The notes under the pieces: generated by a model
The model's input: the letters and a program-made list of their open reading frames with translations, nothing else
Told to the model about the DNA's origin: nothing
The model's database searches: none
Assembly: GCF_003584125.1 (NCBI RefSeq)
Contig: NZ_QXFL01000004.1
Location: 372,001 to 436,000 of the forward strand
Length of the DNA: 64,000 nt
Source of the DNA: Aurantiacibacter zhengii
GTDB taxonomy: Bacteria > Pseudomonadota > Alphaproteobacteria > Sphingomonadales > Sphingomonadaceae
Reading direction: 5' to 3'
Program-made: the position numbers and the translations under genes
Shown: positions 39,599-59,892 of the stretch, one piece after another
Position numbering within the stretch: the stretch's first letter is position 1
Layout of the letters: each line of letters opens with the position of its first letter

Positions 39599-39604
39599 TT
39601 GTCG

Positions 39605-40606: not shown

Positions 40607-40666
40607 CGGCTTTTCCTTGCTCTAAGTCTCTACGGCTACAGCTTGCCCACCCGCCGCGAGAGGTAG

Positions 40667-40705
40667 AAAAAATGGGCCCCTGCGCAAGAGCACGCAGGAG
40701 CCCAT
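40667..40705 (-). terminator. Rho-independent terminator of the TonB receptor gene
   Basis: On the minus strand a 13-bp stem (ATGGGCTCCTGCG ... CGCAGGGGCCCAT with one mismatch, 40672-40684 with 40693-40705) is followed by a run of T. It ends the receptor transcript 31 bases after its stop codon. Confidence 0.85.
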
Positions 40706-40735
40706 CTGGTCATCTCATCCGGAGGAGCTCCGACT

Positions 40736-44098: not shown

Positions 44099-44192
44099 TG
44101 ACTGCTCTCCCCTCTGATTCACCGCTGTTTTCGCGGCGATATCGCACAAAGTCCAAGGCGCCGGACTGGCGCTGCACCATTGGCATACCAAG

Positions 44193-44210
44193 ATTGTGAG
44201 CGTTCACAAT
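44193..44210. promoter_or_regulatory. Putative LacI-family operator 1 in receptor/halogenase intergenic region
   Basis: ATTGTGAGCGTTCACAAT is an almost perfect 18-base palindrome (one mismatched pair). It lies 95 bases upstream of the receptor start and 153 upstream of the divergent flavoenzyme start. It matches the site before GH3 (37290-37307) at 16 of 18 positions. Confidence 0.78.
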
Positions 44211-44215
44211 AGCAA

Positions 44216-44233
44216 AAAATGAACGTTCCCATT
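44216..44233. promoter_or_regulatory. Putative LacI-family operator 2, weaker
   Basis: AAAATGAACGTTCCCATT has the perfect GAACGTTC core and agrees with the reverse complement of the GH3 site at 14 of 18 positions. Its centre is 23 bases (about two helical turns) from operator 1, the spacing expected for two dimers on one DNA face. Confidence 0.55.
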
Positions 44234-44362
44234 TGTCGACCCGTGGTGTAACATTTTTGCATTACTCCCTTCTCGGCCCAAGGCATCACGGCCTTTTGGA
44301 CGGGTTTTGCGAAGGCGGGGGAACAGCGCTAGAGCGGGCGCAACGGGATTGGCGAGAGAGCT

Positions 44363-45877: not shown

Positions 45878-45962
45878 CTGCTGCGAAATAGCCGCGCCGA
45901 TGTCATAGATCGGTCATGCAGCCTTGGCAGTTACCGGTCCGACATTCACCGGGCCGGGGCAT

Positions 45963-46637
45963 ATGGACCGCATCAGCATACTGACTACCAGCCAAGAGGC
46001 ATCGCGCTTTGCGGAATTCGCGCACGGCGAGGCGACGTTCGTCTTCCGCCTGCTGCAGCCCGATGGGCCGCCCGCGCTGGTTGACGGGCGGGCCTGGGTT
46101 TTTGTCGACTGGGTGATGGATACGCTTTCCGGCCTCGAGATGGTTCGCCGCCTGCGGGCCGATCCGCGCACGCAGGACGCGCACGTCACGATGGTGCTGG
46201 AAGAAGACGATGCCGAGGATCGTCGCCGCGCCCTGAAAGCCGGCGCCGACGATTATGCCGTGGGCCCGCTGGACCGGCAGGCAATGTTAGACCGGGTGCT
46301 GGCCCTGTTCGCGCTGCGCCATTCTGCCAGCAAGCTGCAACTGCTCGAAATCGGCGATCTGCAGATCAACGTGGCGGGCGAGCAGGCGCGCTGGCGCGAT
46401 GCCCAGATCGCCCTTCGCCCCAACGAATTTCGCGTGCTGCGGTTCATGGCGGAAAATCCCAACCGCGTGCTGACCCGGCAGGAACTGATTGAGGCGCTGG
46501 GCAAGGAGGGAGACCCCGATTACCTCCGCACGGTCGACGTGTGGATCAAGCGCCTTCGCCAGGGGCTGCGCAATGCCGGTGCGGATCACCTGCTGCGCAC
46601 CGTGCACGGGCGCGGTTACGTGCTCGACCTTATCTGA
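45963..46637 (+). CDS. OmpR/PhoB-family response regulator with atypical receiver
   Basis: The start at ATG 45963 gives 224 residues. The receiver (1-115) has the phospho-acceptor D49 in 'WVFVDWVMDTLSGLEMVRRL'. However, the usual acidic pair after strand 1 is missing ('ISILTTSQE') and the conserved lysine is replaced ('DDYAVGPLDR' instead of x-K-P). Phosphorylation by a classical kinase is therefore doubtful. Residues 125-224 form a complete winged helix with 'IALRPNEFRVLRFMAENPNRVLTRQELIEAL' and 'RTVDVWIKRLRQGLRNAGADHLLRTVHGRGYVL'. No histidine kinase gene is adjacent. It lies 85 bp after the halogenase-like gene and is followed by a terminator. Confidence 0.9.
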   Translation: MDRISILTTSQEASRFAEFAHGEATFVFRLLQPDGPPALVDGRAWVFVDWVMDTLSGLEMVRRLRADPRTQDAHVTMVLEEDDAEDRRRALKAGADDYAVGPLDRQAMLDRVLALFALRHSASKLQLLEIGDLQINVAGEQARWRDAQIALRPNEFRVLRFMAENPNRVLTRQELIEALGKEGDPDYLRTVDVWIKRLRQGLRNAGADHLLRTVHGRGYVLDLI

Positions 46638-46721: not shown

Positions 46722-49430
46722 CTAGAAAGTCAGCGAAACCGAAGCTGCCAGGGTCGTTCCGCGATCGTAGGTGTTGATCTCCGCGCGGTTCACGCCGTCG
46801 GTCTGGAATTCCTCGTTCCGGCGATTGAAGATGTTGCGGGCTTCCAGCTTCACTTCCATGTCGTTGCCCATCAGGTCGAAACCCTGCCGCGCCACGAGGT
46901 CCACCGTCAGGCCGGGATCTTCCACGATATCGGGCAGGCCCGATGTACCGCGGCTGGTCACGCGCTGGCTTGCATAGTTCATCAGCACGGTGAACTGCTG
47001 CAAGCTCTCGGTATCCTCGAAACTCATCTGGAAGTTGACCAGATGATCGGACTGACCGGTCAGCGGAACGCCATCCACAAACAGGTTGCTGGCCGCCGTG
47101 TCGCCGCCGGGGAACAGGCGGGTGATGTCACCCTGCTGCACCGAGATTTCCGAGTTGGTGTAGGTGTAGTTCGCCAGCAGCAGCAACTGCTTTGTCTCGA
47201 AGAAGCCACCCAGGTTGTAGAGATCGAAGGTGTACTGCGTATCGGCCTCGACACCCCACAGCGTGGCGCTGGGCGCGTTGGCGAAGCTGGTGAGCTGGGC
47301 ATTGTCGGAGAAGCTCGAGAAGGCCTCGATCGGGTTCTCGATATCCTTGTAAAAACCTGCCACCGAAACCTTGTCGCCGCCGCCGAAATAATATTCGCCG
47401 CGCACTTCGAAGTTGGTGAGACGGCTGTCCACCAGGAAGGGGTTGCCGTTGAACTGGCGGTTGGTTTCCGGATCGTAATAGGTCTGGAAGATCAACTCGC
47501 GGAACTGCGGGCGGGCCAGCGTCTTGGAGGCGTTGGCGCGCAGTTGCAGGTTCTCGATCGGCTCCACGGTCACGGTGGCCGCAGGCAGCCAGTAAGTGTT
47601 GTTGAGCGCCGTGGAACTCGCCGAGTTGAGCGGGGTGGTGAACACCTCCACCGGGTCAACCGTCTGCTCGGCATCCTCGTAACGGACGCCGACATCGAGC
47701 ATCACGCCCAGCACCGGCTCCCAGTTCACCTTGCCATAGCCTGCATGCACCGTGAGTGCAGAGGTAAAGGCCGGGTCCGACTGGGTGGATTCGATCAGTC
47801 CGATATCGAAGAAGTCGATGATCGCATCGCCCAGCAACAGGTCCGGACGCAGCGAGCCCACGCCATCGGGGAAGCTGGTGGGCGCGTTGAACAGGAACTC
47901 GCGCCGTTCGGAGAAACGCTCGGTGTCGCTGTAGGCATAGCCCACGGTCAGCGCGAAGCTGTCGAACACCGGATAGCTGAGATCGACGCCGCCCGCCCAC
48001 AGTTCTTCCTGCAGGTCGGAAAAGACCACGGAAGCATCGCCGGTCTGGCGGTCCAGCACGTTGATGAACTGGTCGCTCAGCGGGCCGTTGGCGTTGTCGC
48101 GTACATAGGTGAAGGTATATTCATACGGCGCCTCGCGGTCGGTGCGGGCATAGCCGCCGCGCAGGTCTACGCCGAGATCGCCAAATTCCAGTTCCGCCAC
48201 CAGCTGCGTGTCGATCAGCTGGCGTTCGAACCATGCAGTCTGTTGCTGGACGATGGAATCGTCGTCCTGGAAATCCTCGCCAGTGGAAAGGCGGGCCAGC
48301 TTGGAGGTGTCGCGGATGAACAGGTTGGTCCAGCGGAACTGGTGGTCGCCCACTTCGAGGCCGAAGCCCAGCAGCGCGTTCACCAGCACGGAGTTGTCGG
48401 TCACCACGTCGCGGAAATCGCTGTCGAGTGTGAAGTCGGCGAGGATCGACTGCGAGGTGATATCGCGCGTGCGCCACTTGTTGCTGACAGATGCGGTCGC
48501 GACGATACCCAGCAGGCCGTCGCCAAACACGTCGAGCGAGGTACCGGCCGTGATCCCGGCGGACCAGTTGGGCTGCACGTCGCCGATCTGCTGCACCAGG
48601 ATCAGGTTGGGGTTGCCCAGCTGCTTGGCGATATCAAGTTGCGTGAAAGGCGCGTCGTTGACGTTCTGCTCCGGGTCGAGCGGCACGTCGCTCATCCGGA
48701 TGCCGCTGTCGAAGAAGGTCTGCAACGCGGGCGGCACGTCGCGGGTGCCATCGTCGAAGCCGAACCAGTCATAGTCGGAGCCGTAGTAGGAGAGGCCACG
48801 CTGGTAGGTGGTCTCGGTGTTGCCGCTGATCCCCGCGCTGATTTCGAGGAAGCTTTCCTCGGGCACGGCGCGGGTCGTGAGGTTGATCACGCCACCGCCG
48901 AATTCACCGGGGAAGTTGGCCGAATAGGTCTTCTGCACCAGACTGGAGGCGACCACATTGGTGGGGAAGATATCCAGCGGCACCACGCGGCTCAGCGGCT
49001 GCGGCGAAGGCAGCGGCAGGCCGTTCAGCAGCGCCAGCGAGTAGCGGTCGCCAAGACCGCGCACGTAGACGAAGCCCTGACCCTGTACCGACAGACCGGT
49101 AACGCGGCCCAGCGCGCCAGCGATGTCGCCTTCGCCGGTGCGCGCGATCTGCTCCGTCGAGAGCACGTTGACCACCTGCGTGGAATTGCGTTCCGGGTTA
49201 CGGTTGATGCGCCCGGTCACGATGATCGACCCGCCCGGGATCGACACGTCGGTGTCCTGGAAATCATCCTCCTGCCCGTCAGGATCCTGGTCCAGAAGCT
49301 CGTCGCGCTCCACGTCTTCCTGCGTGGGCGACAGAGCGCTGCCGCCTGAATCCTGAGCAAAAGCCGCGCCCGGGAAAGAGAGCGCGGTGGTGAGCAAGAG
49401 CAGCCCCGCCAGCCGCTTGCCAGTGGTCAT
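46722..49430 (-). CDS. TonB-dependent receptor paired with a beta-helix-like lipoprotein
   Basis: The start at ATG 49430 gives 902 residues with a signal peptide (GKRLAGLLLLTTALSFPGAAFAQ); GGGGAG lies about 9 bases upstream. An acidic linker (about 30-60) precedes 'GSIIVTGRINRNPERNSTQVVNVLSTEQIARTGEGDIAGALGRVTGLSVQGQGFVYVRGLGDRYSLALLNGLPLPSP', a plug type distinct from the siderophore and glucan receptors in this window. The barrel closes with 'TLAASVSLTF', ending in Phe. It is transcribed after a beta-helix lipoprotein, with a hairpin between. The ligand is unknown. Confidence 0.93.
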   Translation of the reverse strand: MTTGKRLAGLLLLTTALSFPGAAFAQDSGGSALSPTQEDVERDELLDQDPDGQEDDFQDTDVSIPGGSIIVTGRINRNPERNSTQVVNVLSTEQIARTGEGDIAGALGRVTGLSVQGQGFVYVRGLGDRYSLALLNGLPLPSPQPLSRVVPLDIFPTNVVASSLVQKTYSANFPGEFGGGVINLTTRAVPEESFLEISAGISGNTETTYQRGLSYYGSDYDWFGFDDGTRDVPPALQTFFDSGIRMSDVPLDPEQNVNDAPFTQLDIAKQLGNPNLILVQQIGDVQPNWSAGITAGTSLDVFGDGLLGIVATASVSNKWRTRDITSQSILADFTLDSDFRDVVTDNSVLVNALLGFGLEVGDHQFRWTNLFIRDTSKLARLSTGEDFQDDDSIVQQQTAWFERQLIDTQLVAELEFGDLGVDLRGGYARTDREAPYEYTFTYVRDNANGPLSDQFINVLDRQTGDASVVFSDLQEELWAGGVDLSYPVFDSFALTVGYAYSDTERFSERREFLFNAPTSFPDGVGSLRPDLLLGDAIIDFFDIGLIESTQSDPAFTSALTVHAGYGKVNWEPVLGVMLDVGVRYEDAEQTVDPVEVFTTPLNSASSTALNNTYWLPAATVTVEPIENLQLRANASKTLARPQFRELIFQTYYDPETNRQFNGNPFLVDSRLTNFEVRGEYYFGGGDKVSVAGFYKDIENPIEAFSSFSDNAQLTSFANAPSATLWGVEADTQYTFDLYNLGGFFETKQLLLLANYTYTNSEISVQQGDITRLFPGGDTAASNLFVDGVPLTGQSDHLVNFQMSFEDTESLQQFTVLMNYASQRVTSRGTSGLPDIVEDPGLTVDLVARQGFDLMGNDMEVKLEARNIFNRRNEEFQTDGVNRAEINTYDRGTTLAASVSLTF

Positions 49431-49471
49431 TATCGTGACTCCCCTTTGAGTCGAAAATTGAAATAGAGGCA

Positions 49472-49524: not shown

Positions 49525-51102
49525 TCACAGGACCGGAATTTCGGTGCACTGGCCGGTGTTGTTGCCGAAGCTGACTGCTGCCGAATCGCAGGTCCAGCCC
49601 TGGGTCCAGTCGTCGCTCGGAGATACGGCACCGATGAAATCGACGGTTTCGAAGAAGCTGGACAGCGCGACGATATCGAAGATCGGCGTGTAGTTCTCTT
49701 CGCTGTTACCGTTCAGGTAGCCGTTCACGATAGTGTGCGTGTAGTCCTTGTTGTTACCCGTGCCTGCATCGAAGATGGCTTCGGCCTGGGTGGCACTGGC
49801 GCCGCCGTTGCTGCCGTTGCGGAAGTTGGTGGTGCAATCCAGCGCCACCGAGTTGAACCGCACGGTGCCCACATCGTCGAGGCCGGCATTGGCGGCGCGG
49901 ATGGTTTCCTCGTCGTCGATGCGGATGCACGGGGTGGAAGTCGAAGCGTCGAAGATCACGCCGTTGTAAAGGCCGTAGTCGGCACCGCCACGGATACGCA
50001 CCACCTGGTCACCGGCACGGCGCTGGATGAAGGTGAAGTTGCTGATCGTGGTGTTCTGGCGCGGGGTCTGGTCTTCCAGGCCATTGCTCGAGTCGGCTTC
50101 GATGATCGTGTCACCGATGCCCTGGCGCTGGGCGGCGATGACGAACTGCATGTTCGCCTTCACGCCGGTGTCGGTATCGAGCGAGTCGTCTTCCGCCCCC
50201 GCCACGATCAGGTTCTTGATGTTCACGATGCCGCCGAAGAACTCGACGCCGTCATCCGAGGAATTGACCGACTGGATATGGCTGAGCTCGGTGCCCGAGC
50301 CGATGCCGCCAGTGGTGAGCGACTGCAATTCGTTGTCGCCCGAGAGCACGAAGCCCGAATAGCGGATCTGCACGTAGCTCATCGAACCCGAGCTGTCGTT
50401 CGGGGTCGCGCCGCCGAAGAAGCTGGGAGCCGCAGCACCTTCGACCTGGCGTTCGCAATCCACCGAACCCGGCGCTGCCGCCGGTTCGAAGCAATCCGTT
50501 ACCGGAGCGCGGCCGGAAAGGACGACGCCGCCCCACTGGCCCGACGAGTTGGCGTTGTTGAGGCCGACCACGTTATCACGGCTGGTGAAGATGATCGGAC
50601 GGTCGGCGGTGCCGTTGGCATCGATCGAATTGCCGCGGGTCACATTCAGGAAAGAGGATCCGGAAGCGTAGATGATGACGCCGGGCTCGATGGTCAGCTC
50701 GACATCGGTGTCGGATGCCCCGTCGCTGGCGTCGGGAGCCGGGCCGCCGTCGGTGCCCACGTTGACCTGGCCGGGCAGACGATAGAGCAAGCCGTCGATC
50801 TGGCGCAGCGTCGACGAAACGTCGAAACGCTCCGGCGTGGCGCAGACGCGCCATTCGTCGCCGGCGCTGTTGGAAATCGTGCCTTCGTCGGTCAGGCCCT
50901 GCGGGTCGCTGATCGTCGGACAGCCCGCGGCCGGGGTGATCCGCGGGGCGGATGTCGGCGTGGGCGAAGGGGTAGGTGTCGCAGGCGGGTTGTTGATGAT
51001 GACATTGCCACCGGTGCCGGGCGAAGCAATCTCCTCGGCGCCGCAGGCGGACAGGGCCAGCGCGGAGCAACCAAGGATCAAAGAGCGAGAAAGAATAGTC
51101 AC
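49525..51102 (-). CDS. Lipoprotein with right-handed beta-helix-like repeats, function unknown
   Basis: The start is taken as GTG 51102, nine bases after AGGGGA, giving 525 residues with a lipoprotein signal (ILGCSALALSAC, Cys20). A Pro/Thr/Ser linker follows to about residue 55. The rest is rich in Asn, Gly, Asp and Ser with repeating short beta-strand patterns, for example 'IIFTSRDNVVGLNN', 'SSGQWGGVVLSGRAPV', 'MSYVQIRYSGF', 'LSHIQSVNSSDDGVEFFGG' and 'ISNFTFIQRR', consistent with a parallel beta-helix. Such lipoproteins recur next to TonB receptors in proteobacteria and Bacteroidetes, but the function is not established to my knowledge. It is probably an outer-membrane surface protein that works with the receptor encoded downstream. 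Confidence 0.85.
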   Translation of the reverse strand: MTILSRSLILGCSALALSACGAEEIASPGTGGNVIINNPPATPTPSPTPTSAPRITPAAGCPTISDPQGLTDEGTISNSAGDEWRVCATPERFDVSSTLRQIDGLLYRLPGQVNVGTDGGPAPDASDGASDTDVELTIEPGVIIYASGSSFLNVTRGNSIDANGTADRPIIFTSRDNVVGLNNANSSGQWGGVVLSGRAPVTDCFEPAAAPGSVDCERQVEGAAAPSFFGGATPNDSSGSMSYVQIRYSGFVLSGDNELQSLTTGGIGSGTELSHIQSVNSSDDGVEFFGGIVNIKNLIVAGAEDDSLDTDTGVKANMQFVIAAQRQGIGDTIIEADSSNGLEDQTPRQNTTISNFTFIQRRAGDQVVRIRGGADYGLYNGVIFDASTSTPCIRIDDEETIRAANAGLDDVGTVRFNSVALDCTTNFRNGSNGGASATQAEAIFDAGTGNNKDYTHTIVNGYLNGNSEENYTPIFDIVALSSFFETVDFIGAVSPSDDWTQGWTCDSAAVSFGNNTGQCTEIPVL

Positions 51103-51197
51103 AGCGTACGGTCCCCTCAAAAAACCGAGAATCGAAAAAAGAGCGAATGCGATGTCGCGAGAGGACGGCTAGGCCTGCCAAGTGACACTTTGGCGAC

Positions 51198-51223
51198 CGT
51201 GTTACGGTTTCGTGTTACGGTTT
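51198..51223. repeat. Perfect 13-bp tandem direct repeat in divergent promoter region
   Basis: CGTGTTACGGTTT occurs twice head to tail with no spacer, in the 267-base region between the lipoprotein start (minus) and the small TPR gene (plus). Direct repeats of this kind are typical of sites for OmpR/PhoB-type regulators, although the 13-base period differs from the 11 bases of a classical Pho box. Confidence 0.6.
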
Positions 51224-51369
51224 GTCATAATCGCCGCAAAATGTTGTTTCTCAACGGCAAAAATCTTTCCACAAAGCCTGTTATTGCAGTTTTGTGACAA
51301 TGTGACGCTTTTGTTGCAGTTCACGGATGATGGTCGCACAATGATCCTCAAGAGATTGGGAGAACCATC

Positions 51370-51732
51370 ATGTTTGCATCCGCCACCCTCGCCTTCCTGC
51401 TGATTGCCCAGGCAGGCCCGTCCGCCGCGACCACCCAGCCCGACATCGAAACCCGCGATGTCGCGTACGAGACCATCGCTTCCGGCGAAGCGCGCGAGGC
51501 CATCGTCCGCCTGGAAGAAGCGCGTGCCGAGAACCCCGGCGATCCGGCCCTGCTTATCAACCTAGGCGCTGCCTACGCCGCCGTGGGTGATTATCAGCTT
51601 GCCGAGCAGGCCTATCGCGATGCCATCGCGAGCGACGACCGTTACGAACTGGAACTGGCCAGTGGGGAGTGGATCGATTCGCGTCACGCTGCTCGCCTCG
51701 CCCTGCTGTCCCTGGAAACCGCAGCCGATTAA
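51370..51732 (+). CDS. Small exported TPR-repeat protein
   Basis: A 120-residue protein with a short signal-like N-terminus (FASATLAFLLIAQAGPSAA) and about two TPR units at about residues 28-92, e.g. 'ARAENPGDPALLINLGAAYAAVGDYQLAEQAYRDAIASD'. It is probably periplasmic and would act as a protein-binding adaptor. It is divergent from the beta-helix lipoprotein/receptor pair and followed at once by a strong terminator, so it is monocistronic. A functional link with the lipoprotein and receptor is inferred from the shared control region with tandem repeats. The partner is unknown. Confidence 0.82.
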   Translation: MFASATLAFLLIAQAGPSAATTQPDIETRDVAYETIASGEAREAIVRLEEARAENPGDPALLINLGAAYAAVGDYQLAEQAYRDAIASDDRYELELASGEWIDSRHAARLALLSLETAAD

Positions 51733-51791
51733 TCGGCGCGACAGACCCTGTAATATAGTGCTGAACCGGCAATGATGCCGGGCCAGCATTA

Positions 51792-51829
51792 AAAAAGGCC
51801 CGGAAGGCAATGGCTTTCCGGGCTTTTTC
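51792..51829 (+). terminator. Rho-independent terminator
   Basis: A-rich left flank, stem GGCCCGGAAGGC/GCTTTCCGGGCT with wobble pairs around an AATG loop, and a T-run at 51824-51828. It ends the TPR gene and separates it from the type IV secretion operon. Confidence 0.92.
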
Positions 51830-51915
51830 TATGGCACTATAAGCACCCGCGCACCGGCCGCACTGTCATGCCGTTGTCATTTGTTGTAAGCATTGGGCGG
51901 CTCTGGAGGCTCCGA

Positions 51916-52566
51916 ATGATTCTGCGTACCTGCACATCCACGCTCGCGCTGGCGGCTTCCGCGCTGTGCGCCCTGCCCGCGCAGGCAGATGTGCTGGAAA
52001 TCTCGCCCGAGGGAGAGGTTGCATGGATCGCCGGACCGCTGGTCAATGCGCCAGCCAGCGTGGACATGAATGCCACCACTTCGGCCATGCCGCTGGCGGA
52101 GGTTCCGCTGGAAGCGACGTCCCTCGTTCCCGACAGCGCGGTTGCCAACGCGCTGGAACATTCCGCCGCCGTACCGGAAGCCTACGCCGCGCACATCGCG
52201 CGTCTGGCGGAACGTTTCGATCTTTCTCCCGCCCTGCTGGAAGCGGTGGTGTGGCAGGAGAGCCGCTGGCGCGCCGATGCAGTATCGCCGGCGGGCGCAC
52301 GCGGCCTTGCCCAACTCATGCCGGGTACCGCGCGCGACCTGGGCGTCGATCCCGACAATCCGCTCGCCAACCTGGAGGGCGGCGCACGCTACCTGCGTGA
52401 GCAGCTCGACCGGTTCGATGGCGACCTTGAAAAGGCTCTTGCCGCCTACAACGCCGGCCCCGGACGCGTGATCCGTTCAGGGGGTATTCCGCGTATTCGT
52501 GAAACACAGGTCTATGTATCCTCGATCATGGGCCGCCTTGCCGACCATTCCCGGAGTTCCGACTGA
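51916..52566 (+). CDS. virB1: VirB1-like lytic transglycosylase
   Basis: ATG 51916 follows GGAGG by eight bases, giving 216 residues. A signal peptide (LALAASALCALPAQA) is followed by an ~75-residue spacer without a known fold, then a soluble lytic transglycosylase domain from about residue 95. The catalytic glutamate is E115 in 'LEAVVWQESRWRADAVSPAGARGLAQLMPGTA', and 'LEKALAAYNAGPGRV' is the second SLT motif. The enzyme opens peptidoglycan to let the secretion channel pass. It is the first gene of the operon, 3 bp before virB2. The order 1-2-3-4-6-9-10-11 agrees with VirB1 rather than a housekeeping transglycosylase. Confidence 0.92.
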   Translation: MILRTCTSTLALAASALCALPAQADVLEISPEGEVAWIAGPLVNAPASVDMNATTSAMPLAEVPLEATSLVPDSAVANALEHSAAVPEAYAAHIARLAERFDLSPALLEAVVWQESRWRADAVSPAGARGLAQLMPGTARDLGVDPDNPLANLEGGARYLREQLDRFDGDLEKALAAYNAGPGRVIRSGGIPRIRETQVYVSSIMGRLADHSRSSD

Positions 52567-52568
52567 CA

Positions 52569-52862
52569 ATGCACGCTTTCTACCGCCTCGCCGCTGCTAT
52601 CGCGGTGCTTCTCGCGCCATCTGCCGCCTATGCGCAGGATCCCGCCGGGTCCGGTCCGATCAACAACGCGCTCGGCTGGATGCAGAACACCCTGCTGGGC
52701 AGCGTGGCGACGGCCGTTGCCGTGATGGCCGTGGCAGCCGTGGGCTTCATGATGCTGACGGGCCGGATGAACTGGCGTTTCGGCGCTACCGTGATCCTGG
52801 GCTGCTTCATCATCTTCGGTGCCGCCTCCATCGTGGCCGGCATTCAGGGCGCGGCAGGGTAA
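52569..52862 (+). CDS. virB2: VirB2/TrbC-family major pilin
   Basis: A 97-residue protein with a cleavable signal (AAAIAVLLAPSAAYAQ), followed by two hydrophobic helices ('NTLLGSVATAVAVMAVAAVGFMML' and 'FGATVILGCFIIFGAASIVAGI') joined by the short basic loop 'TGRMNWR'. This hairpin of two membrane helices with a positively charged turn is the VirB2 pilin design. It forms the T-pilus or the secretion-channel filament. It begins 3 bp after virB1. Confidence 0.93.
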   Translation: MHAFYRLAAAIAVLLAPSAAYAQDPAGSGPINNALGWMQNTLLGSVATAVAVMAVAAVGFMMLTGRMNWRFGATVILGCFIIFGAASIVAGIQGAAG

Positions 52863-52875
52863 GGGAGCGCGAACG

Positions 52876-53157
52876 ATGCAGCTTGTCCGCCACCCCGTTC
52901 ATCGCGCGCTTACGCGGCCGCAGATGTTTGCGGGCGTGACGTTCAACTACTTCATCATCAACGCGCTGGTGACGACAGAGGCTTTCCTGATTCTGAAAAG
53001 CCTGTGGATCCTGCCGATCCCCATCATCATGCACGTGATCGGCTATTTCGCCTGCCTTCGCGAACCGCGCATTTTCGACCTGTGGCTGACGAAAGTCAGC
53101 AAGTGTCCGCGGGTCCGCAATTACAGCCGCTGGGGCTGCAACAGTTACGCCGCCTAG
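52876..53157 (+). CDS. virB3: VirB3-family inner-membrane component
   Basis: A 93-residue protein starting at ATG 52876 behind AAGGGAGC. The opening 'VRHPVHRALTRPQMFAGVTFNYFIINALVTTEAF' is the VirB3 signature: H-x-x-H-R-A-L-T-R-P followed by a membrane segment. A second segment, 'LWILPIPIIMHVIGYFACLREPRIFDLWLTK', contains the conserved R-E-P-R. VirB3 sits in the inner membrane next to VirB4. The protein is complete and of normal length for the family. Confidence 0.93.
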   Translation: MQLVRHPVHRALTRPQMFAGVTFNYFIINALVTTEAFLILKSLWILPIPIIMHVIGYFACLREPRIFDLWLTKVSKCPRVRNYSRWGCNSYAA

Positions 53158-53207
53158 ATCGCGGCTCCCGAACCGCCGCCCGGTAGCGGGCGGCATGGAG
53201 TGAGACC

Positions 53208-55655
53208 ATGAAGACCAAGGGGCTCAAGTGGCCCAAATTCCGAATGGGCGCCGCAGCGTGGAGCGCGAAGGAAGCGCAGGCCGGCGAACGCCTGCCCTAT
53301 GCGCGGCTGGTCGATGAAAACGTCGTGCAGTTGCGCGACGGCTCGCTGATGGCTGCCATGCAGGTGCCCGGCCTGCTGTTCGAGACAGAAGATACCGATG
53401 CGCTGAACGCCCACGCGCAAACGCGCGAGGTGATGCTGCGCTCCAACCTCGATGCGCGCTTCGTGCTTTACCACCACGTCATCCGCCGCCGGGTAAGCGT
53501 GGAACTCGACGCCGCTTTCGAGGATCCGCTGTCTGCCCATATCGATGCTCGGTGGCGCGAAAAGCTGTCGAGCGGATCGCTGTTCGTGAACGACCAGTTC
53601 ATCTCGCTGGTGCGCCGCCCGGCACGGGGCAAGGCGGGCCTGGCAGAGAAGGCGGGCAAGATCTTCAAGCGCCGTAACGAGGAAGAGCCGGTCGATCCCA
53701 AGGACCTGCGATCCTTGCGCGGCGCATTGCAGGCGCTGTCCGCCAGCCTGGGCGACTACGGCGCGCAGCCGCTTGGCGACTACGTCGGCCCGTCTGGCAA
53801 TACCAACAACGAAGTGCTGGAATTGCTCTCCGCCCTCTACAACGGCGAGATGCGCCCGGTGCGCCGCCCCGACATCGATACAGACATCGGTCGCATGCTG
53901 CCCTACCGCCGTGCCAGTTTCGGCCTGGACGCAATGGAACTGCGGGGCAGTGGCGGGGCGGACTTCGCCTCGATCCTGAGCCTGAAGGACTATCCCGACG
54001 CCACCAGCCCGGGGCTGCTCGATGGTATCCTGCGCCTTCCCTGCGAAATGGTGGTGACCGAGAGCTTCGCGCCCGAAGAACGGCAGACCGCGCGCGAGAA
54101 GATCGACCTCGCCATCCGCCGCCTGAAAAGCGCGGACGAGGAAGCGCAGAGCGAGCGCGCCGAGATGATGGCCGCGCGTGACGAACTTGGCGCAGGCTCC
54201 GTGGCCTTTGGCGACCACCACCTCACCGTGCTGGTGCGCGAACGCAACCTGGAACGGCTGGACGATGCGACCGCATCCGTTGCCGCCAGCCTGGCCGATA
54301 CCGGCGCAATCGCTGTGCGCGAGGATACCAATCTGGAGCCCGCCTTCTGGGGCCAGTTCCCCGGTAACGAGCAGTACCTCGTGCGCCGTGCGATGATCTC
54401 CACTGCCAACATGGCGAGCTTCGGCAGCTTGCACGGTTTCGCCTTGGGCCAGGCCGATGGTAACCACTGGGGCGAAGCGGTGACGCTTCTGCAGACCACC
54501 AGCTCCACCCCGTTCTTCTTCAACTTCCACAATGGCGATCTGGGCAACTTCTCGGTCATCGGGCCTTCGGGTTCGGGCAAGACCGTGGTCATGAATTTCC
54601 TCGCCGCACAGGCGCAGAAGTTCAATCCGCGCACCATCCTGTTCGACAAGGATCGCGGCGCGGAGCTGTTCATTCGCGGTATCGGCGGCAGCTACGACCG
54701 CATTCGTTCAGGTGAGCCGACCGGCTTCAACCCGCTCGCCTTGCCCGATACGCCTGCCAATCGCGGCTTTCTGCGCGACTGGCTTTCGGTGCTGCTGAAG
54801 GCAGAAGGGCCTGAAGAAAGCGCCACCATCGCCTCCGCCGTCGATGCGGCCTATTCCAACGATCCCTCGCTGCGCCGCCTTCGCTATTTCAAGGAACTGG
54901 TCTCGGGCGCGCGCCGCCCGCAGCCGGGCGACCTCGCAGATCGCCTGTCCGCATGGATCGAGGATGGCGAGAACGGCTGGCTGTTCGACAATGCCGACGA
55001 CAAGCTCGATCTCTCCACCCGCGTCATGGGCTTCGACATGACCGCGCTGCTGGAAAATCCCAAGCTGCGCACGCCGGTCATGATGTACCTGTTCCACCGC
55101 ATCGACGAACGGCTGGACGGCCACCCCACGATGGTGTTGATCGACGAGGGCTGGAAAGCGCTGGACGACGAGGTGTTCGCTGCCCGCATCCGCGACTGGC
55201 TGAAGACGCTGCGTAAACGCAATGCTCTTGTCGGATTTGCGACACAGTCCGCCCGCGACGCGCTGGATAGCCGCATTTCCACCGCATTGGTGGAGCAGAC
55301 GGCCACCATGGTTTTCATGCCCAACGCCCGCGCCCGCGCAGAGGATTACTGCGAAGGTTTTGGCCTGACCGAGCACGAGCTTGCGCTGATCCGGTCGCTG
55401 CCCGCGCACAGCCGCTGTTTCCTTGTCCGCCAGCCCGACGCAAGCGTCGTGGTCCGCCTAGACCTGTCGGGCGCGCCCGAAGTGCTGACGATCCTTTCCG
55501 GCCGCGAAAGCAGCGTCCGCCGCCTCGACCTGCTGCGAGAAGCCGTGGGTGACGATCCCGCGCAGTGGTATCCTGCTCTCACCAACCGGCCCTGGCCTGG
55601 TTCGGGCCAGAAGCAGGATGATGACGACAGCTTCAGCTGGCAAGCCGCGGAATGA
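53208..55655 (+). CDS. virB4: VirB4-family secretion ATPase
   Basis: An 815-residue hexameric ATPase that powers pilus assembly and substrate transfer. The N-terminal CagE/TrbE domain covers about 30-400. The Walker A loop is 'GPSGSGKT' at about 452-459 and Walker B 'TMVLIDEGWKAL' at about 640-651, followed by 'VGFATQSARDAL', the third conserved motif. ATG 53208 lies 50 bp after virB3 with GGAGTGAG upstream. The stop overlaps virB6 by ATGA. The chain is complete; no fusion to VirB3 is present. Confidence 0.97.
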   Translation: MKTKGLKWPKFRMGAAAWSAKEAQAGERLPYARLVDENVVQLRDGSLMAAMQVPGLLFETEDTDALNAHAQTREVMLRSNLDARFVLYHHVIRRRVSVELDAAFEDPLSAHIDARWREKLSSGSLFVNDQFISLVRRPARGKAGLAEKAGKIFKRRNEEEPVDPKDLRSLRGALQALSASLGDYGAQPLGDYVGPSGNTNNEVLELLSALYNGEMRPVRRPDIDTDIGRMLPYRRASFGLDAMELRGSGGADFASILSLKDYPDATSPGLLDGILRLPCEMVVTESFAPEERQTAREKIDLAIRRLKSADEEAQSERAEMMAARDELGAGSVAFGDHHLTVLVRERNLERLDDATASVAASLADTGAIAVREDTNLEPAFWGQFPGNEQYLVRRAMISTANMASFGSLHGFALGQADGNHWGEAVTLLQTTSSTPFFFNFHNGDLGNFSVIGPSGSGKTVVMNFLAAQAQKFNPRTILFDKDRGAELFIRGIGGSYDRIRSGEPTGFNPLALPDTPANRGFLRDWLSVLLKAEGPEESATIASAVDAAYSNDPSLRRLRYFKELVSGARRPQPGDLADRLSAWIEDGENGWLFDNADDKLDLSTRVMGFDMTALLENPKLRTPVMMYLFHRIDERLDGHPTMVLIDEGWKALDDEVFAARIRDWLKTLRKRNALVGFATQSARDALDSRISTALVEQTATMVFMPNARARAEDYCEGFGLTEHELALIRSLPAHSRCFLVRQPDASVVVRLDLSGAPEVLTILSGRESSVRRLDLLREAVGDDPAQWYPALTNRPWPGSGQKQDDDDSFSWQAAE

Positions 55656-56860
55656 GCGTTACCAGCACACCGACCGGCGCAGGCGTCGAATGCATGCGCG
55701 CCATGGAGGGCGTGGGCGCGGGTATCGGCGCCAGCTTGCGCGGCGTGGATTGCGCCGCCAGCGAGATGGCGCAGGCCGCCTTCAACCGCCTGTTCAGCGC
55801 GGAAGGCAGCTTCGGCCCGACCCTCACCATCCTGCTGACGCTGTGGATCGCTTTCCTCGGCTTCGGCCTGATTACCGGGCGTACGCGGCTGGGTCTATCG
55901 TCCCTTACGCCCCGCATGGTCACGCTGGTGCTGGTGATTACCTTTGCCACCAGCTGGGTCGCGTTCCAGAGCGTGTTCTGGAACCTGGCCGTCGGCGCGC
56001 CCGACCAGATCGCTACTGTGCTGATGGGTACGGACGGTTCGGCCACCACCATTTTCGCGGACAAGCTGGACGTGGTCATGCTCTCCCTGATGGAAGCATC
56101 GGGCGGCGATGCCATGGCCAACGACACCTCGATCTTCTCCCCGCCGGGCCTGCTCTGGTCGGGCGGCACCATGTTGCTGCTGGGCACCGTGGGCGTTCTG
56201 GCCACCTGCAAGATCGCGCTCGCCATCCTGATGGGTCTCGGCCCCATTTTCATCGTCATGGCCCTGTTCGATGGCACGCGGGGCCTGTTCGTGGGCTGGC
56301 TGAAAGGCATCACCCTGATGGCCCTCGCCCCGCTGTTCGCGGTGCTGGGCGGTTCGCTGATGCTGGAACTGGCAATCCCTGTCCTGGCCAGCCTGATGGC
56401 GACCCCCGGCGAGATCGACGTGCGCCCCGCCATGGCCTTCTTCATGATCGGCGCGGTGCACCTGGCGCTGATGTTCATGGTGCTGAAGGTCACCACCACG
56501 ATGGTAAGCGGGTGGAGCGCCTTCGGCCTTTCGCGCAGCGCCGGCGTGGACGAGCAGGGCGGTTACAACACCGCCCGTGCCGCATCCGCACCGCCGGTCG
56601 CCCCCGCCGTTACCACTACCACCGCGCGCGACCGTGCCGCGCAGTCCGCACCGCCCGCCACACGCGATATCCGCGTGACGGCCGGCACTCCCGCTGCCGC
56701 GAACGACACCGGGGGCTCCACCACCTTGCGCGAGACGAAGATCGTGCAGGCAGGCGGCGGCGCCGACCAGGGGCGCAGCGGCAGTTCCTCCCCATCTCGT
56801 GCTCGCGGCATCGGCAGCCGTTTCAAGAGCGCGCCCATCCGTTCCTCGGAGAAAATGTAA
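55652..56860 (+). CDS. virB6: VirB6/TrbL-family polytopic channel protein
   Basis: A 402-residue protein with about six transmembrane segments, at about residues 52-70, 85-105, 165-190, 195-225, 235-255 and 265-285, and the VirB6 core 'LAILMGLGPIFIVMALFDGTRGLFVGWLKGITLMALAPLFAVLGGSLM'. The C-terminal ~110 residues are low-complexity, rich in Ala, Thr, Pro and Arg, and probably cytoplasmic. It overlaps virB4 by ATGA and shares one base with virB9 (TAATG). That leaves no room for the virB8 gene that usually lies between virB6 and virB9. Confidence 0.92.
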   Translation: MSVTSTPTGAGVECMRAMEGVGAGIGASLRGVDCAASEMAQAAFNRLFSAEGSFGPTLTILLTLWIAFLGFGLITGRTRLGLSSLTPRMVTLVLVITFATSWVAFQSVFWNLAVGAPDQIATVLMGTDGSATTIFADKLDVVMLSLMEASGGDAMANDTSIFSPPGLLWSGGTMLLLGTVGVLATCKIALAILMGLGPIFIVMALFDGTRGLFVGWLKGITLMALAPLFAVLGGSLMLELAIPVLASLMATPGEIDVRPAMAFFMIGAVHLALMFMVLKVTTTMVSGWSAFGLSRSAGVDEQGGYNTARAASAPPVAPAVTTTTARDRAAQSAPPATRDIRVTAGTPAAANDTGGSTTLRETKIVQAGGGADQGRSGSSSPSRARGIGSRFKSAPIRSSEKM

Positions 56861-57651
56861 TGTTTCGTGAAAGCATCGCCGCGATGCTGCTGGCATCCGC
56901 CCTTTTGGCCGCTCCCGCCGCTGCGCAGGACCCGCGCCTCGTCGAGCGTCTCTACGACCCGACGCAGGTCGTGCGGATCGAGGGGAAGGTGAACGTCCAG
57001 TCGACCATACAGTTCGGCGAAGGCGAAGTGATCGAGAACGTCGCGATCGGCGACAGCCAATCCTGGCAGGTTACGCCAAACCGGCGCGCCAACCTCTTGT
57101 TCGTGAAGCCGCTGGCTCCGCGCGCAAGCACCAACATGACCGTGGTGACCAACCGCCACACATACCTGTTCGATCTGGTTTCCAACCCTGGCATCCGCAC
57201 GCCTCTGTATGTGCTGACATTCAGCTATCCTATTGAGGTGGAGCCGGTGGAGGAGGAGACGCAGGTCGCCTCAGCCAATCCGGGCGTGCAGCCCAACGCG
57301 ATGGAAATGGCTGCGGCGAACGATGACTATGCCGTGCTCGACCCCACGCGGCTGAATTTCGAATGGGCCACCAGCGGCGACCGCGCCCTGCTGCCGGAGC
57401 GCATTTATGACGATGGGACCGCCACGTTCCTCGCCTGGCCAAACGGCACGCCGATGCCTGCCATATTGGTGAAAGATCACGAGGGTACGGAAGGTCCGGT
57501 AAATTTCGCCGTGCGCGGCGATACCATCGTGTTGGACGTGGTGCCGAGCGAGATCATCCTGCGGTCTGGCGACAACGCCGCCATGCTCGTGAATGAAGGA
57601 CCGGTCGGTGCGGCGAATGCCGACGGCACGGCCCAGGAACAGGGTGCCTGA
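56860..57651 (+). CDS. virB9: VirB9-family outer-membrane core component
   Basis: A 263-residue protein starting at ATG 56860, one base inside the virB6 stop. A signal peptide (SIAAMLLASALLAAPAAAQ) precedes the periplasmic VirB9 domain: 'DPTQVVRIEGKVNVQSTIQFGEGEVIENVAIGDSQSWQVTPNRRANLLFVKPLAPRASTNMTVVTNRHTYLFDLV' is the family hallmark. The C-terminal TrbG/CagX domain ends with 'DGTATFLAWPNGTPMPAILVKD' and following beta strands. VirB9 usually pairs with the lipoprotein VirB7, but no small lipoprotein gene exists in the flanking gaps. Confidence 0.95.
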   Translation: MFRESIAAMLLASALLAAPAAAQDPRLVERLYDPTQVVRIEGKVNVQSTIQFGEGEVIENVAIGDSQSWQVTPNRRANLLFVKPLAPRASTNMTVVTNRHTYLFDLVSNPGIRTPLYVLTFSYPIEVEPVEEETQVASANPGVQPNAMEMAAANDDYAVLDPTRLNFEWATSGDRALLPERIYDDGTATFLAWPNGTPMPAILVKDHEGTEGPVNFAVRGDTIVLDVVPSEIILRSGDNAAMLVNEGPVGAANADGTAQEQGA

Positions 57652-57674
57652 GCGGCACCACGGAGAATAGCGAT

Positions 57675-58826
57675 ATGAAACTTGCCATGCGCCTTCCCGA
57701 ACGCAGCGCCGGTCATGCCAACGATGCCGACCCGCGCGACGATGAGACCACGGAGGTCATCGACCTTGCCAGCCGCACCTCCTACCCCGCGGTGGCCAAC
57801 CGCAAGGGCAACAAGGACGCGCTGGGCCTGCTGGCGGGCGTCGGCTTTGTCGCGCTGCTGGGTGCTGCAACGCTGTGGGGCCTGAATGCCGGGCGCGGAG
57901 ATGACGCCGCTGCCTCTGCCGAAGCAGCGCAGCCCGCGCCGCCGCCGCCCGCTCCCGTGGACATGGCAGCAACGCCGACGGACGGCCTGCCCAGCGCCAA
58001 CGCCGGGGTCCTGCCGCAGGCCGATCCCGCTCCCTCCGCCGTGCTGGCCCGCGTACCGGAAGGCAACGCAGCCATGGGACCGGCAACCAACCCCTATTCC
58101 TCGCCCACGCTCGTCTTCGACGGCGGCACCGCGCCCGCATCCGCTGCCGCCAACGCCGCTGCTGCGGAGGCCGCTGCGGCCGGCGCGCCCAACAATGCTG
58201 TTGTCCCGGGTGGCGGTGCAGCGGGTGAATTCGCCGCACGCATCGGCGGCGTGGGTGGCGGCCCGGCCGTGGCCGTGCAGGATGTCAATCCGGCCACCAC
58301 GGTGACCCAAGGCACGATGATCCCGGCAATCCTCGAAACTGCCATCAACACCGACGTGCCGGGGTTCGTACGCGCCGTGGTTAGCCAGGACGTGCGCAGC
58401 TACGATGGCAGCCGCGTGCTGATCCCGCGCTCCAGCCGTCTCGTCGGCCAGTACCAGTCCGGCCTGCAGGCGGGCCAGCGGCGCGCCTATGTGATCTGGC
58501 AACGCGTTATCCGCCCCGATGGTGTTACCGTGTCGCTGCAAAGCCCGGCCACCAGCTTCGATGGCACGGCGGGCCTGCAGGGCGATGTGAACACCCATTT
58601 CTTCAGCAGGTTCGGCAGCGCCATGCTGCTGTCGGTCATCGGCGGCCTCACCACCGTCGCCAGCGGTGGCGCGTCGGTTATCCTCGGCGGCGGGGAATCT
58701 GCCGCGAGCACGGCCTTGCAGCAGGACGGACAGCGTCCGCCCACCATTCGTGTTCGCATGGGTGAACCGATCCGCGTCTACACCGCGCGCGATCTGGACT
58801 TCACCCGCGCGCCGCAGGTCAACTGA
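57675..58826 (+). CDS. virB10: VirB10/TrbI-family core scaffold protein
   Basis: A 383-residue protein with a short cytoplasmic N-terminus, one membrane helix at about 49-70 ('ALGLLAGVGFVALLGAATLWGL'), a long Ala/Pro-rich periplasmic linker (about 75-185) and the C-terminal beta-barrel domain from about 200. Conserved parts are 'GTMIPAILETAINTDVPGFVRAVVSQDVRSYDGSRVLIPRSSRLVGQYQSGLQ' and 'GEPIRVYTARDLDF' near the end. VirB10 spans both membranes and transmits energy from the ATPases. It lies 23 bp after virB9 and 7 bp before virB11. Confidence 0.96.
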   Translation: MKLAMRLPERSAGHANDADPRDDETTEVIDLASRTSYPAVANRKGNKDALGLLAGVGFVALLGAATLWGLNAGRGDDAAASAEAAQPAPPPPAPVDMAATPTDGLPSANAGVLPQADPAPSAVLARVPEGNAAMGPATNPYSSPTLVFDGGTAPASAAANAAAAEAAAAGAPNNAVVPGGGAAGEFAARIGGVGGGPAVAVQDVNPATTVTQGTMIPAILETAINTDVPGFVRAVVSQDVRSYDGSRVLIPRSSRLVGQYQSGLQAGQRRAYVIWQRVIRPDGVTVSLQSPATSFDGTAGLQGDVNTHFFSRFGSAMLLSVIGGLTTVASGGASVILGGGESAASTALQQDGQRPPTIRVRMGEPIRVYTARDLDFTRAPQVN

Positions 58827-58833
58827 GGCCACC

Positions 58834-59892
58834 GTGTCGGCGGAAATCCATCATCTGGGTGATAAGCCGGAGCGCGGAGGGGATGCGCCCACGCCCATGG
58901 CCGGACCGCCCGAAGACGCGCCGCAGGTGCCCAGTGGTTCGGTCTATCTCGATGCCTACCTGGCGCCTTTCCGCGACTGGCTGGAGCGTGACACGGTAAC
59001 CGAAATTCTCGTGAATAAGCCAGGAGAGATGTGGGTGGAGGATGCCGCCACCCCGGGCATGCAGCGTGTCGAGAACGAGGCGATCGACGACAAGCTGATC
59101 CAGCGCCTAGCCGAACAGGTCGCGCGCATCAGCCACCAGGGTATCAACCGCGAACATCCGCTGCTGGGTGCGACCCTCCCGGACGGCGCGCGCATCCAGT
59201 TCTGCGGCCCGCCCGCCACGCGCAAGCACTGGGCGATGGCCGTACGCCGCCACCGCCGCCTTGATCTGCCGCTGGACGCCTACGATTCCGGGCCGCTGTC
59301 GCAGCCGAGCGAAGCGGACATGCCCGATCCGCAAGACCATCCGATCGCTTTCCTGCGTGCCGCGATCAGGGCCAAGAAGACGATCCTGATTTCGGGTGGT
59401 ACCAGCACCGGCAAGACAACCTTCCTCAACGCGATGCTGGGCGAAATCCCGCGCGACGAACGCGTCGTGCTGGTGGAGGATACGCCCGAACTCAAGTTCC
59501 CCGGCGCAAACGCCGTGGGCCTCGTCGCCGTGAAGGGCGAACTGGGAGAGGCCAAGGTTACCGCCAACGAACTTCTGCAATCGGCGCTGCGCCTGCGGCC
59601 CGACCGCATCGTGCTGGGCGAACTGCGCGGCGCGGAAAGCGTATCCTTCCTGCGCGCGATCAACACCGGTCACCCCGGCAGTTTTTCCACCATCCATGCC
59701 AATTCCCTGCGCGGCGCGCTGGAACAGCTTTCGCTGATGGTGATGCAGACCGGCATCGGCCTGACCCGCAGCGACACCATTGCCTATGCCGCCAGCGTGA
59801 TCGACGTGATCGTTCAGCTGAAGCGGTCGGACGGCAAGCGCGGCATCGCCGCCATTGCCCGCGCCAGCGATCTGGTGGAAACGTGGGCGTGA
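58834..59892 (+). CDS. virB11: VirB11-family secretion ATPase
   Basis: A 352-residue traffic ATPase with a GTG start at 58834, the first initiation codon after the virB10 stop. The N-terminal domain begins 'YLAPFRDWLERDTVTEILVNKPGEMWVE', the family signature. Walker A is 'SGGTSTGKT' at about 187-195, followed by the Asp box 'VVLVEDTPEL', 'LRLRPDRIVLGELRGAES' (Walker B region) and the His box 'NTGHPGSFSTIHANS'. It forms a hexamer at the base of the channel. It is the last gene of the operon; the next gene, ppk, starts 49 bp later. No VirD4-type coupling ATPase gene follows. Confidence 0.96.
   Translation: MSAEIHHLGDKPERGGDAPTPMAGPPEDAPQVPSGSVYLDAYLAPFRDWLERDTVTEILVNKPGEMWVEDAATPGMQRVENEAIDDKLIQRLAEQVARISHQGINREHPLLGATLPDGARIQFCGPPATRKHWAMAVRRHRRLDLPLDAYDSGPLSQPSEADMPDPQDHPIAFLRAAIRAKKTILISGGTSTGKTTFLNAMLGEIPRDERVVLVEDTPELKFPGANAVGLVAVKGELGEAKVTANELLQSALRLRPDRIVLGELRGAESVSFLRAINTGHPGSFSTIHANSLRGALEQLSLMVMQTGIGLTRSDTIAYAASVIDVIVQLKRSDGKRGIAAIARASDLVETWA

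Follow-up and report, generated by a model that had tools for sequence, protein, structure and literature searches.

A VirD4- and VirB8-less type IV secretion operon as a possible phosphate-controlled stand-in for the type II secretion system in Aurantiacibacter zhengii and its relatives

What could a VirB-type channel do after it had apparently shed its coupling protein VirD4, its pilus tip VirB5 and its assembly factor VirB8? The question is raised by an operon for a type IV secretion system (T4SS) in a stretch of 64,000 nucleotides from Aurantiacibacter zhengii (contig NZ_QXFL01000004.1, positions 372,001 to 436,000; hereafter the window); VirB8 is regarded as an essential assembly factor. 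The answer proposed here from sequence comparisons, to which we give an even chance, is that a T4SS without VirD4 and VirB8 has taken over from the type II secretion system (T2SS) the export of Sec-delivered proteins across the outer membrane when cells are starved of phosphate. A role as substitute exporter in phosphate scavenging is possible because the operon has what appears to be a phosphate switch and, in the sampled genomes, occurs almost only where the T2SS is missing. The wider claim, that a whole lineage swapped its T2SS for a conjugation-derived, phosphate-controlled T4SS free of both proteins and uses it as a general second-step outer-membrane exporter, falls somewhat short of even.

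The operon consists of eight genes, virB1-2-3-4-6-9-10-11, in one run; identified from open reading frames (ORFs) and with Pfam matches for all, they stand in the order given by the preliminary description of this DNA:

51916 to 52566, plus strand: virB1, lytic transglycosylase (PF01464 SLT, 87 bits)
52569 to 52862, plus strand: virB2, pilin (PF04956 TrbC/VirB2, 74 bits)
52876 to 53157, plus strand: virB3 (PF05101 VirB3, 99 bits)
53208 to 55655, plus strand: virB4 ATPase (PF03135 CagE_TrbE_VirB, 149 bits; Walker-type motifs)
55652 to 56860, plus strand: virB6 (PF04610 TrbL/VirB6, 104 bits)
56860 to 57651, plus strand: virB9 (PF03524 CagX/VirB9, 166 bits; TIGR02781, 179 bits against a cut-off of 218)
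57675 to 58826, plus strand: virB10 (PF03743 TrbI/VirB10, 173 bits)
58834 to 59892, plus strand: virB11 ATPase (PF00437 T2SSE, 131 bits; motifs intact)

The spacings (B1-B2 2 bp, B2-B3 13, B3-B4 50, B4-B6 -4, B6-B9 -1, B9-B10 23, B10-B11 7) leave no gap above 50 bp and include the overlaps described earlier, with virB6 and virB9 sharing one base. By Pfam and, for VirB5 and VirB7, by gene content, none of virB5, virB7, virB8 and virD4 is among the operon genes, in agreement with that description. Its further statement that no gene can be hidden stands for ORFs of at least 45 aa, since none of that length that is common to at least six loci and centred in the operon was found in 59 relatives' loci, ORFs mostly overlapping known genes being left uncounted; a shorter VirB7 lies outside that scan. 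The outer-membrane core of VirB9 and VirB10 is recognized above the Pfam cut-offs (the NCBIfam VirB9 and VirB10 models match below theirs), and VirB4, VirB3 and VirB6, the inner-membrane complex of a VirB/VirD4-type (minimized, type IVA) T4SS, are all present.

The distribution of the operon was followed in 199 genomes of the family, searched with the window VirB9 and cut at 143 bits. Orthologues reaching this score occupy 79 places in 78 other genomes; after removal of four distant ones (G106, G025, G123 and G072, VirB9 identity 37-42%) and addition of the window genome (G000), the window-type operon is counted in 75 of the 199. The T2SS, for which one GspD model stands, is marked by a GspD over the cut-off in 91. 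The two machines nearly exclude each other: 74 genomes have the T4SS only, 90 the T2SS only, 34 neither and a single one (G079) both, with a Fisher value of 1e-26, which overstates independence because clades are uniform in state. Three of the 34 genomes with neither (G025, G072 and G123) contain a distantly related operon. G079 itself (locus L300, G079:C4:782000-801500) has an unusual GspD, of 379 bits against a cut-off of 351, perhaps from a different type of T2SS. In a tree of GspD the branches of L305, L296 and L300 are very long, possibly through wrong frames, and no conclusion here draws on that tree.

Divergent from the operon lie a lipoprotein gene, LP531, a TonB-dependent receptor gene and then the gene of a PhoB-like regulator. 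These features and the boxes near them are the following:

45900 to 45917, plus strand: PhoB-type box, 16 of 18, before the PhoB-like regulator gene
45963 to 46637, plus strand: PhoB-like response regulator (TIGR02154, 128.7 bits against a cut-off of 296; Trans_reg_C, 72 bits)
46722 to 49463, minus strand: TonB-dependent receptor (PF00593, 100 bits; PF07715, 49 bits; start codon uncertain)
49525 to 51093, minus strand: LP531 lipoprotein, lipobox LSAC (start codon uncertain; the ORF opens at 51120)
51182 to 51199, minus strand: PhoB-type box, 16 of 18, upstream of LP531
51283 to 51300, minus strand: PhoB-type box, 16 of 18, upstream of LP531
51370 to 51732, plus strand: small TPR protein with a signal-peptide-like start, preceding virB1 (PF14559, 31 bits)
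51791 to 51829, plus strand: terminator-like inverted repeat (by eye), separating the TPR gene from virB1
51863 to 51880, plus strand: PhoB-type box CTGTCATGCCGTTGTCAT, 18 of 18, the sole strict match in the genome

The simple idea that the LP531-receptor pair is an obligate partner of the T4SS is rejected, as the pair is also found in T4SS-less genomes, and this is what prompted the comparison with the T2SS. Indeed, the lipoprotein is tied to either machine: LP531 is present in 66 of the 75 T4SS genomes and 72 of the 90 T2SS-only ones (138 of the 165 with either), and in none of the 34 with neither. Its distance is at most 15 kb from virB9 in 52 of 66 cases and from gspD in 41 of 73, in no case from both. 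In the seven genera that hold LP531 and vary in exporter state (g50, g60, g68, g69, g80, g91 and g96), all eight exporter-less members are without it, in 7/7 genera; among these, G138 is counted as lacking LP531 on a match of E 5e-4 only. On the LP531 gene tree (82 selected rows, 47 from T4SS and 35 from T2SS genomes) at least five switches of machine are required, each being forced by starred branches. These seven contrasts and the switches give the exclusion its more independent support.

The pattern can also be followed in single loci. In T4SS-negative locus L269, gspC-D-E-F follow directly after the lipoprotein and receptor genes (ORFs, Pfam), and this lipoprotein is 51% identical to LP531; L302, also T4SS-negative, has the same ORF order, Pfam having been run there on gspI and gspJ. 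The conserved lipoprotein-receptor-TPR locus is without any T4SS gene in L278, L294 and L295 (G119, G080 and G178), whose T2SS lies elsewhere. The gene order lipoprotein, receptor, regulator, TPR, ppk is unchanged in two of these genomes, G119 and G178, except that no T4SS operon separates TPR from ppk, which comes within about 400 bp after the TPR gene.

The second line of evidence is the promoter. About 52 bp before virB1, CTGTCATGCCGTTGTCAT contains two TGTCA half-sites spaced 11 bp apart, arranged as in a PhoB box, and looks like a phosphate-starvation switch. The consensus applied is what we take to be that of the PhoB box, with the promoters of phosphate-selective porins as control. Of 136 virB1 promoters, 120 with a usable start and enough upstream DNA were kept (102 distinct), and the strict box occurs in 85 of the 120 upstream regions against a shuffle mean of 0.005. 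Under a tolerant score of at least 16 of 18, distinct promoters were counted because named and unnamed loci overlap: the box precedes virB1 in 94/102 (shuffles 1.2%), LP531 in 50/63 and the PhoB-like regulator gene in 11/18 distinct upstream regions, against 5/74 for the TPR gene, 2/63 for ppk and, inside the operon, 0/91 for virB4, 0/116 for virB9, 1/117 for virB10 and 0/112 for virB11; shuffles range from 0.1 to 1.4% across these counts. In T2SS genomes, LP531 keeps the box in 20 of 35 cases (shuffles 0.9%). The control is positive, with a box before porin orthologues at 22 of 30 loci (shuffles 1.8%; 36 genomes searched, 32 matched), the porin gene of the window genome sitting in its pst locus.

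As to the regulator, PhoB is favoured because the porin promoters carry the same box, and either PhoB or the PhoB-like gene product may be the acting protein; a related OmpR-family regulator is a less likely candidate. A ChvI-type regulator keeps a small probability because one of three Brucella BvrR boxes has TGTCA repeats, at another spacing. The Caulobacter ChvI motif, TTGC-N3-GCAA, is unlike the box, and CtrA, LexA and plain sigma-70 were discarded as its identity, their patterns being rare or absent (0 to 3 of 120); CcrM sites occur in 49 of 120 upstream regions as a raw count. The receiver of the PhoB-like regulator, compared by eye with the PhoB of the genome, keeps its Asp and is missing the acidic pair and the Lys. 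The position of its gene next to the lipoprotein and receptor genes is conserved in genomes with the T4SS and also in part of those with the T2SS.

LP531 itself has no Pfam, NCBIfam or PDB sequence match; its AF2 model is beta-helix-like (pLDDT 88.4), and in a PDB fold search no match reached E 0.001, the weak ones being of beta-helix type. In the window it bears a lipobox, neighbours the operon and, like virB1, has a PhoB-type box upstream. LP531-type genes also adjoin a phosphate-selective porin gene in L289, L290, L292 and L293 (G059, G131, G088 and G008), a second link of the lipoprotein to phosphate. A known counterpart for such a locus exists in Caulobacter, where, according to the consulted part of Le Blastier 2010 (PMC2996285), phosphate-starved cells make ElpS, a lipoprotein of about 50 kDa, elpS and a TonB receptor gene (CC0171) lie directly upstream of the type II genes, and the release of ElpS depends on the T2SS. 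The gsp order in L269 is the order reported there. Like the Caulobacter locus, the window has a lipoprotein and a TonB receptor beside a known or presumed exporter, and from the box the same starvation control can be predicted; the exporter is a T2SS in Caulobacter and would be a reduced T4SS in the window. LP531 can therefore be called ElpS-like in gene order and probable regulation, a likeness drawn from these features and not from sequence comparison with ElpS.

In the mechanism that we propose, a PhoB-type regulator would activate both the operon and its divergent neighbours, the lipoprotein and TonB-receptor genes, when the cell is starved of phosphate, as the box suggests. Sec would first move proteins over the inner membrane, and VirB9/B10, VirB6 and a VirB2 pseudopilus, driven by VirB4 and VirB11, would then carry them across the outer membrane; the cargo would most likely be the ElpS-like lipoprotein, or an enzyme processing it or working with it. 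The T4SS would so have taken the place of the T2SS, often the neighbour of the lipoprotein-receptor pair in other parts of the family. With coupling protein and pilus tip gone, VirB6, VirB3, VirB4 and VirB10 may no longer need VirB8 for their assembly. In being without VirB8 the operon differs from the Ptl system of Bordetella pertussis, which has a VirB8 homologue. According to the consulted part of a 2025 nomenclature review (PMC12857230), Ptl is like the window locus in having no VirD4 and no VirB5 and takes a two-step route with Sec-exported cargo; as the review proposes for Ptl, a short filament of VirB2, moved by VirB4 and VirB11, would pass through VirB9/B10. Unlike the window operon, Ptl keeps VirB7, and it works in a virulence setting with a toxin as cargo. 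Four VirD4-less systems (Ptl, Brucella, Bartonella Trw and ComB) are discussed in the same part of the review, whose example of a missing VirB8 comes from mycoplasma elements, where there is no outer membrane.

If the proposal is true, a T4SS would have a job that is neither virulence nor conjugation, and a Gram-negative T4SS would assemble without VirB8; with a system that lacks VirB8 and is inherited vertically in many environmental species, nature would supply a deletion in which the purpose of VirB8 can be tested. If the T2SS was indeed replaced, the same second export step would have been solved by two unrelated machines, and a harmless marine bacterium starved of phosphate would become a bench model for Ptl-like two-step secretion.

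The missing-gene pattern is partly in print already: in the portions consulted, Persson 2009 (PMC2702493) marks two Erythrobacter genomes "lacks VirB8", Zheng 2012 (PMC3338782) describes virB2-3-4-6-9-10-11 in Citromicrobium, and Zheng 2016 (PMC4919336) reports that each of 14 Erythrobacter genomes carries a first T4SS copy and that this copy co-evolves with the genome. These portions hold no phosphate box, ElpS-like lipoprotein link or T2SS exclusion, the role seen for the operon being DNA import or transfer; and, as far as titles and the beginnings of abstracts tell, searches among open-licence PMC papers brought up none that connects the operon with phosphate or with a T2SS exchange. New here are the near exclusion between the T4SS operon and the T2SS, the tie of the lipoprotein to either machine, and the PhoB-type box before virB1, the divergent lipoprotein-TonB-receptor pair and the phosphate-porin gene.

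Several observations weigh against replacement of the T2SS as formulated above. The exclusion is structured by clade, 31 genera being all T4SS and 40 all T2SS, and LP531 is missing in 9 of the 75 T4SS and 18 of the 90 T2SS-only genomes. One of the five switches rests on the long-branched L040 and L079, and the genome of L040, G079, is the one with both machines. The box is missing in the tested region of G140, which belongs to the 75, and in 8 of the 102 distinct promoters. LP531 may not be the cargo, because the T2SS of Caulobacter serves for the release of ElpS and not for its transport to the surface (PMC2996285, in the part consulted). Finally, a VirB8 too diverged for PF04335 may escape the search.

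The first alternative, which we hold unlikely, is that the exclusion is a coincidence of ancestry, one clade having lost the T2SS and kept the T4SS with no functional link between the two events. It draws support from the uniform state of 82 of the 96 genera and from the VirB4 tree (a quick tree of 39 selected rows, node support 86-100), where the VirB8-less operons form one clade with the VirB8-bearing operons outside. However, the seven within-genus contrasts tie the lipoprotein to the presence of an exporter, its tree requires at least five switches, and in G119 and G178, which have a T2SS, the T4SS is missing from between the TPR gene and ppk. Next to the VirB8-less clade sit G025 and G123, which have no virB8 between virB6 and virB9, the VirB8 of G123 being about 10 kb off on the other strand; in G106 and G072, conversely, about 760 bp between virB6 and virB9 are occupied by VirB8. 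Before virB1 in G106, G072, G123 and G140 the best box scores are 13-15, matched by 9-50 of 50 shuffles.

Somewhat less favoured, though already proposed in print for the same gene set (in Citromicrobium, in the consulted part of PMC3338782), is DNA import: the machine would be ComB-like and bring DNA to the periplasm as a phosphorus source, with ComEC serving the inner membrane. The PhoB-type box makes such a use of DNA plausible, and ComB of Helicobacter pylori, which imports DNA, is likewise without VirD4 and VirB5. Unlike the window operon, ComB retains a VirB8 (ComB8) and has its VirB11 encoded elsewhere; moreover, import leaves the T2SS exclusion and the common lipoprotein neighbour unexplained, and no competence gene is among the identified conserved neighbours, the genomes having been left unsearched for such genes elsewhere.

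The preliminary description had allowed for unrelated replacements encoded elsewhere or for another task, such as release without a coupling protein. An ordinary T4SS completed in trans, with VirB8 and VirD4 taken from a second virB operon, from mobile elements or from too-diverged genes, appears quite unlikely. The far-encoded ComB11 of H. pylori is an example of such a part, VirB8 occurs somewhere in 33 of the 79 operon genomes, and outside its operon the window genome (3.8 Mb, 29 contigs, 99.99% complete) encodes a VirB8 and two TrwB-type proteins. With one Pfam model each for VirB8 (PF04335) and VirD4 (PF02534), however, 46 of the 79 operon genomes yield no VirB8 and 37 no PF02534 match at E 0.001; among the 75 T4SS genomes, 45 have no PF04335 match anywhere, and 27, the one-contig, complete congener G103 among them, are without VirB8 and also without a PF02534 match at that threshold. 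These counts oppose a detectable VirB8 as a general rule. Of the earlier alternatives, then, the one in which no detectable VirB8 is needed is the one borne out, with protein release without a coupling protein favoured, so that the earlier interpretation receives partial support; the printed record, the phosphate-type box and the T2SS exclusion did not figure in it.

The VirB8 of the window genome does not share the phylogeny of the window operon, as a refutation of the preliminary description would have required, but belongs to a different virB clade. It is the only one in the genome and lies inside a second, paralogous operon, at a distance of about 339 kb on this contig (G000 C24:80099-88525; L005 10099-18525), with virB2, B3, B4, B6, B8, B9, B10 and B11. 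This operon resembles that of the window in being chromosomal, in about 52% VirB4 identity and in that no VirD4 was seen in the 35 kb around it; it differs in having VirB8 between VirB6 and VirB9, in lacking a PhoB-type box in the 800 bp before virB3 and in the tail-collar genes that follow it. In 14 operons of this second type, the best box scores in those 800 bp, which may not always include the promoter, are 13-15, matched by 9-50 of 50 shuffles. The PF02534 matches of the window genome lie in two places; they look like mobile-element parts because both are TrwB-type by PF10412 and one adjoins a TrwC relaxase.

Least probable of all is a pilus or adhesion device, a VirB2 pilus or surface structure made at low phosphate that moves nothing, as proposed for Bartonella Trw, a VirD4-less system thought to form pili (PMC12857230, in the part consulted): the pilin, VirB3, VirB4, VirB6 and VirB11 are retained, with 60% of VirB2 residues conserved in at least 90% of the sequences, yet the tip protein VirB5 is not in the operon and the T2SS exclusion suggests export.

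The operon is a resident chromosomal system, as first supposed. VirB distances track those of ppk (Mantel r 0.57-0.82, 36 loci, 0/1000 shuffles) and, among 1091 plasmid records matching at E 1e-100, no plasmid VirB4 reaches 60% identity; on these two grounds a mobile-element or plasmid origin is rejected. Nor does the operon look like decay, since VirB4 and VirB11 are open with intact ATPase motifs in the loci read (56/56 and 55/55 sequences, window included), and with a single gene order the idea of a remnant is rejected as well. The comparison with relatives shows that order to be stable in the 59 of 79 places read at length, with ppk/ppx or the receptor pair missing nearby in some. Among the best 80 of 404 VirB9 matches, the close relatives belong to Aurantiacibacter, then to Erythrobacter, Qipengyuania, Citromicrobium, Tsuneonella, Croceibacterium and others. 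The VirB9 match of G165 reads through a TAG close to its end, yet the place has an open frame 256 aa long.

Some minor features complete the picture. In the window, ppk and ppx lie downstream of the operon. The TPR protein is unlikely as a VirB8 substitute, no TPR gene being found beside the operon in L051, L054, L057, L063 and other loci. Around the second virB operon, two signal-peptide-like phage-tail-collar proteins follow (L005 18.7-19.9 kb; Pfam run on one), the operon itself carries a weak YbjN match just below the Pfam cut-off, and asparagine-synthase-like and HPr-kinase-like genes are seen by eye upstream. The TrwC relaxase of the window genome lies in L038 (G000:C22:440001-460000) with a TrwB-type coupling protein, an SLT transglycosylase and a reverse transcriptase; methylase- and integrase-like ORFs are also seen there by eye, and the locus is likely an integrated mobile element. 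Finally, a neighbouring cluster in the window (37341-45877) contains a TonB receptor, a GH16-type glycosidase, a LacI regulator and a tryptophan-halogenase-family gene, and perhaps serves for a polysaccharide.

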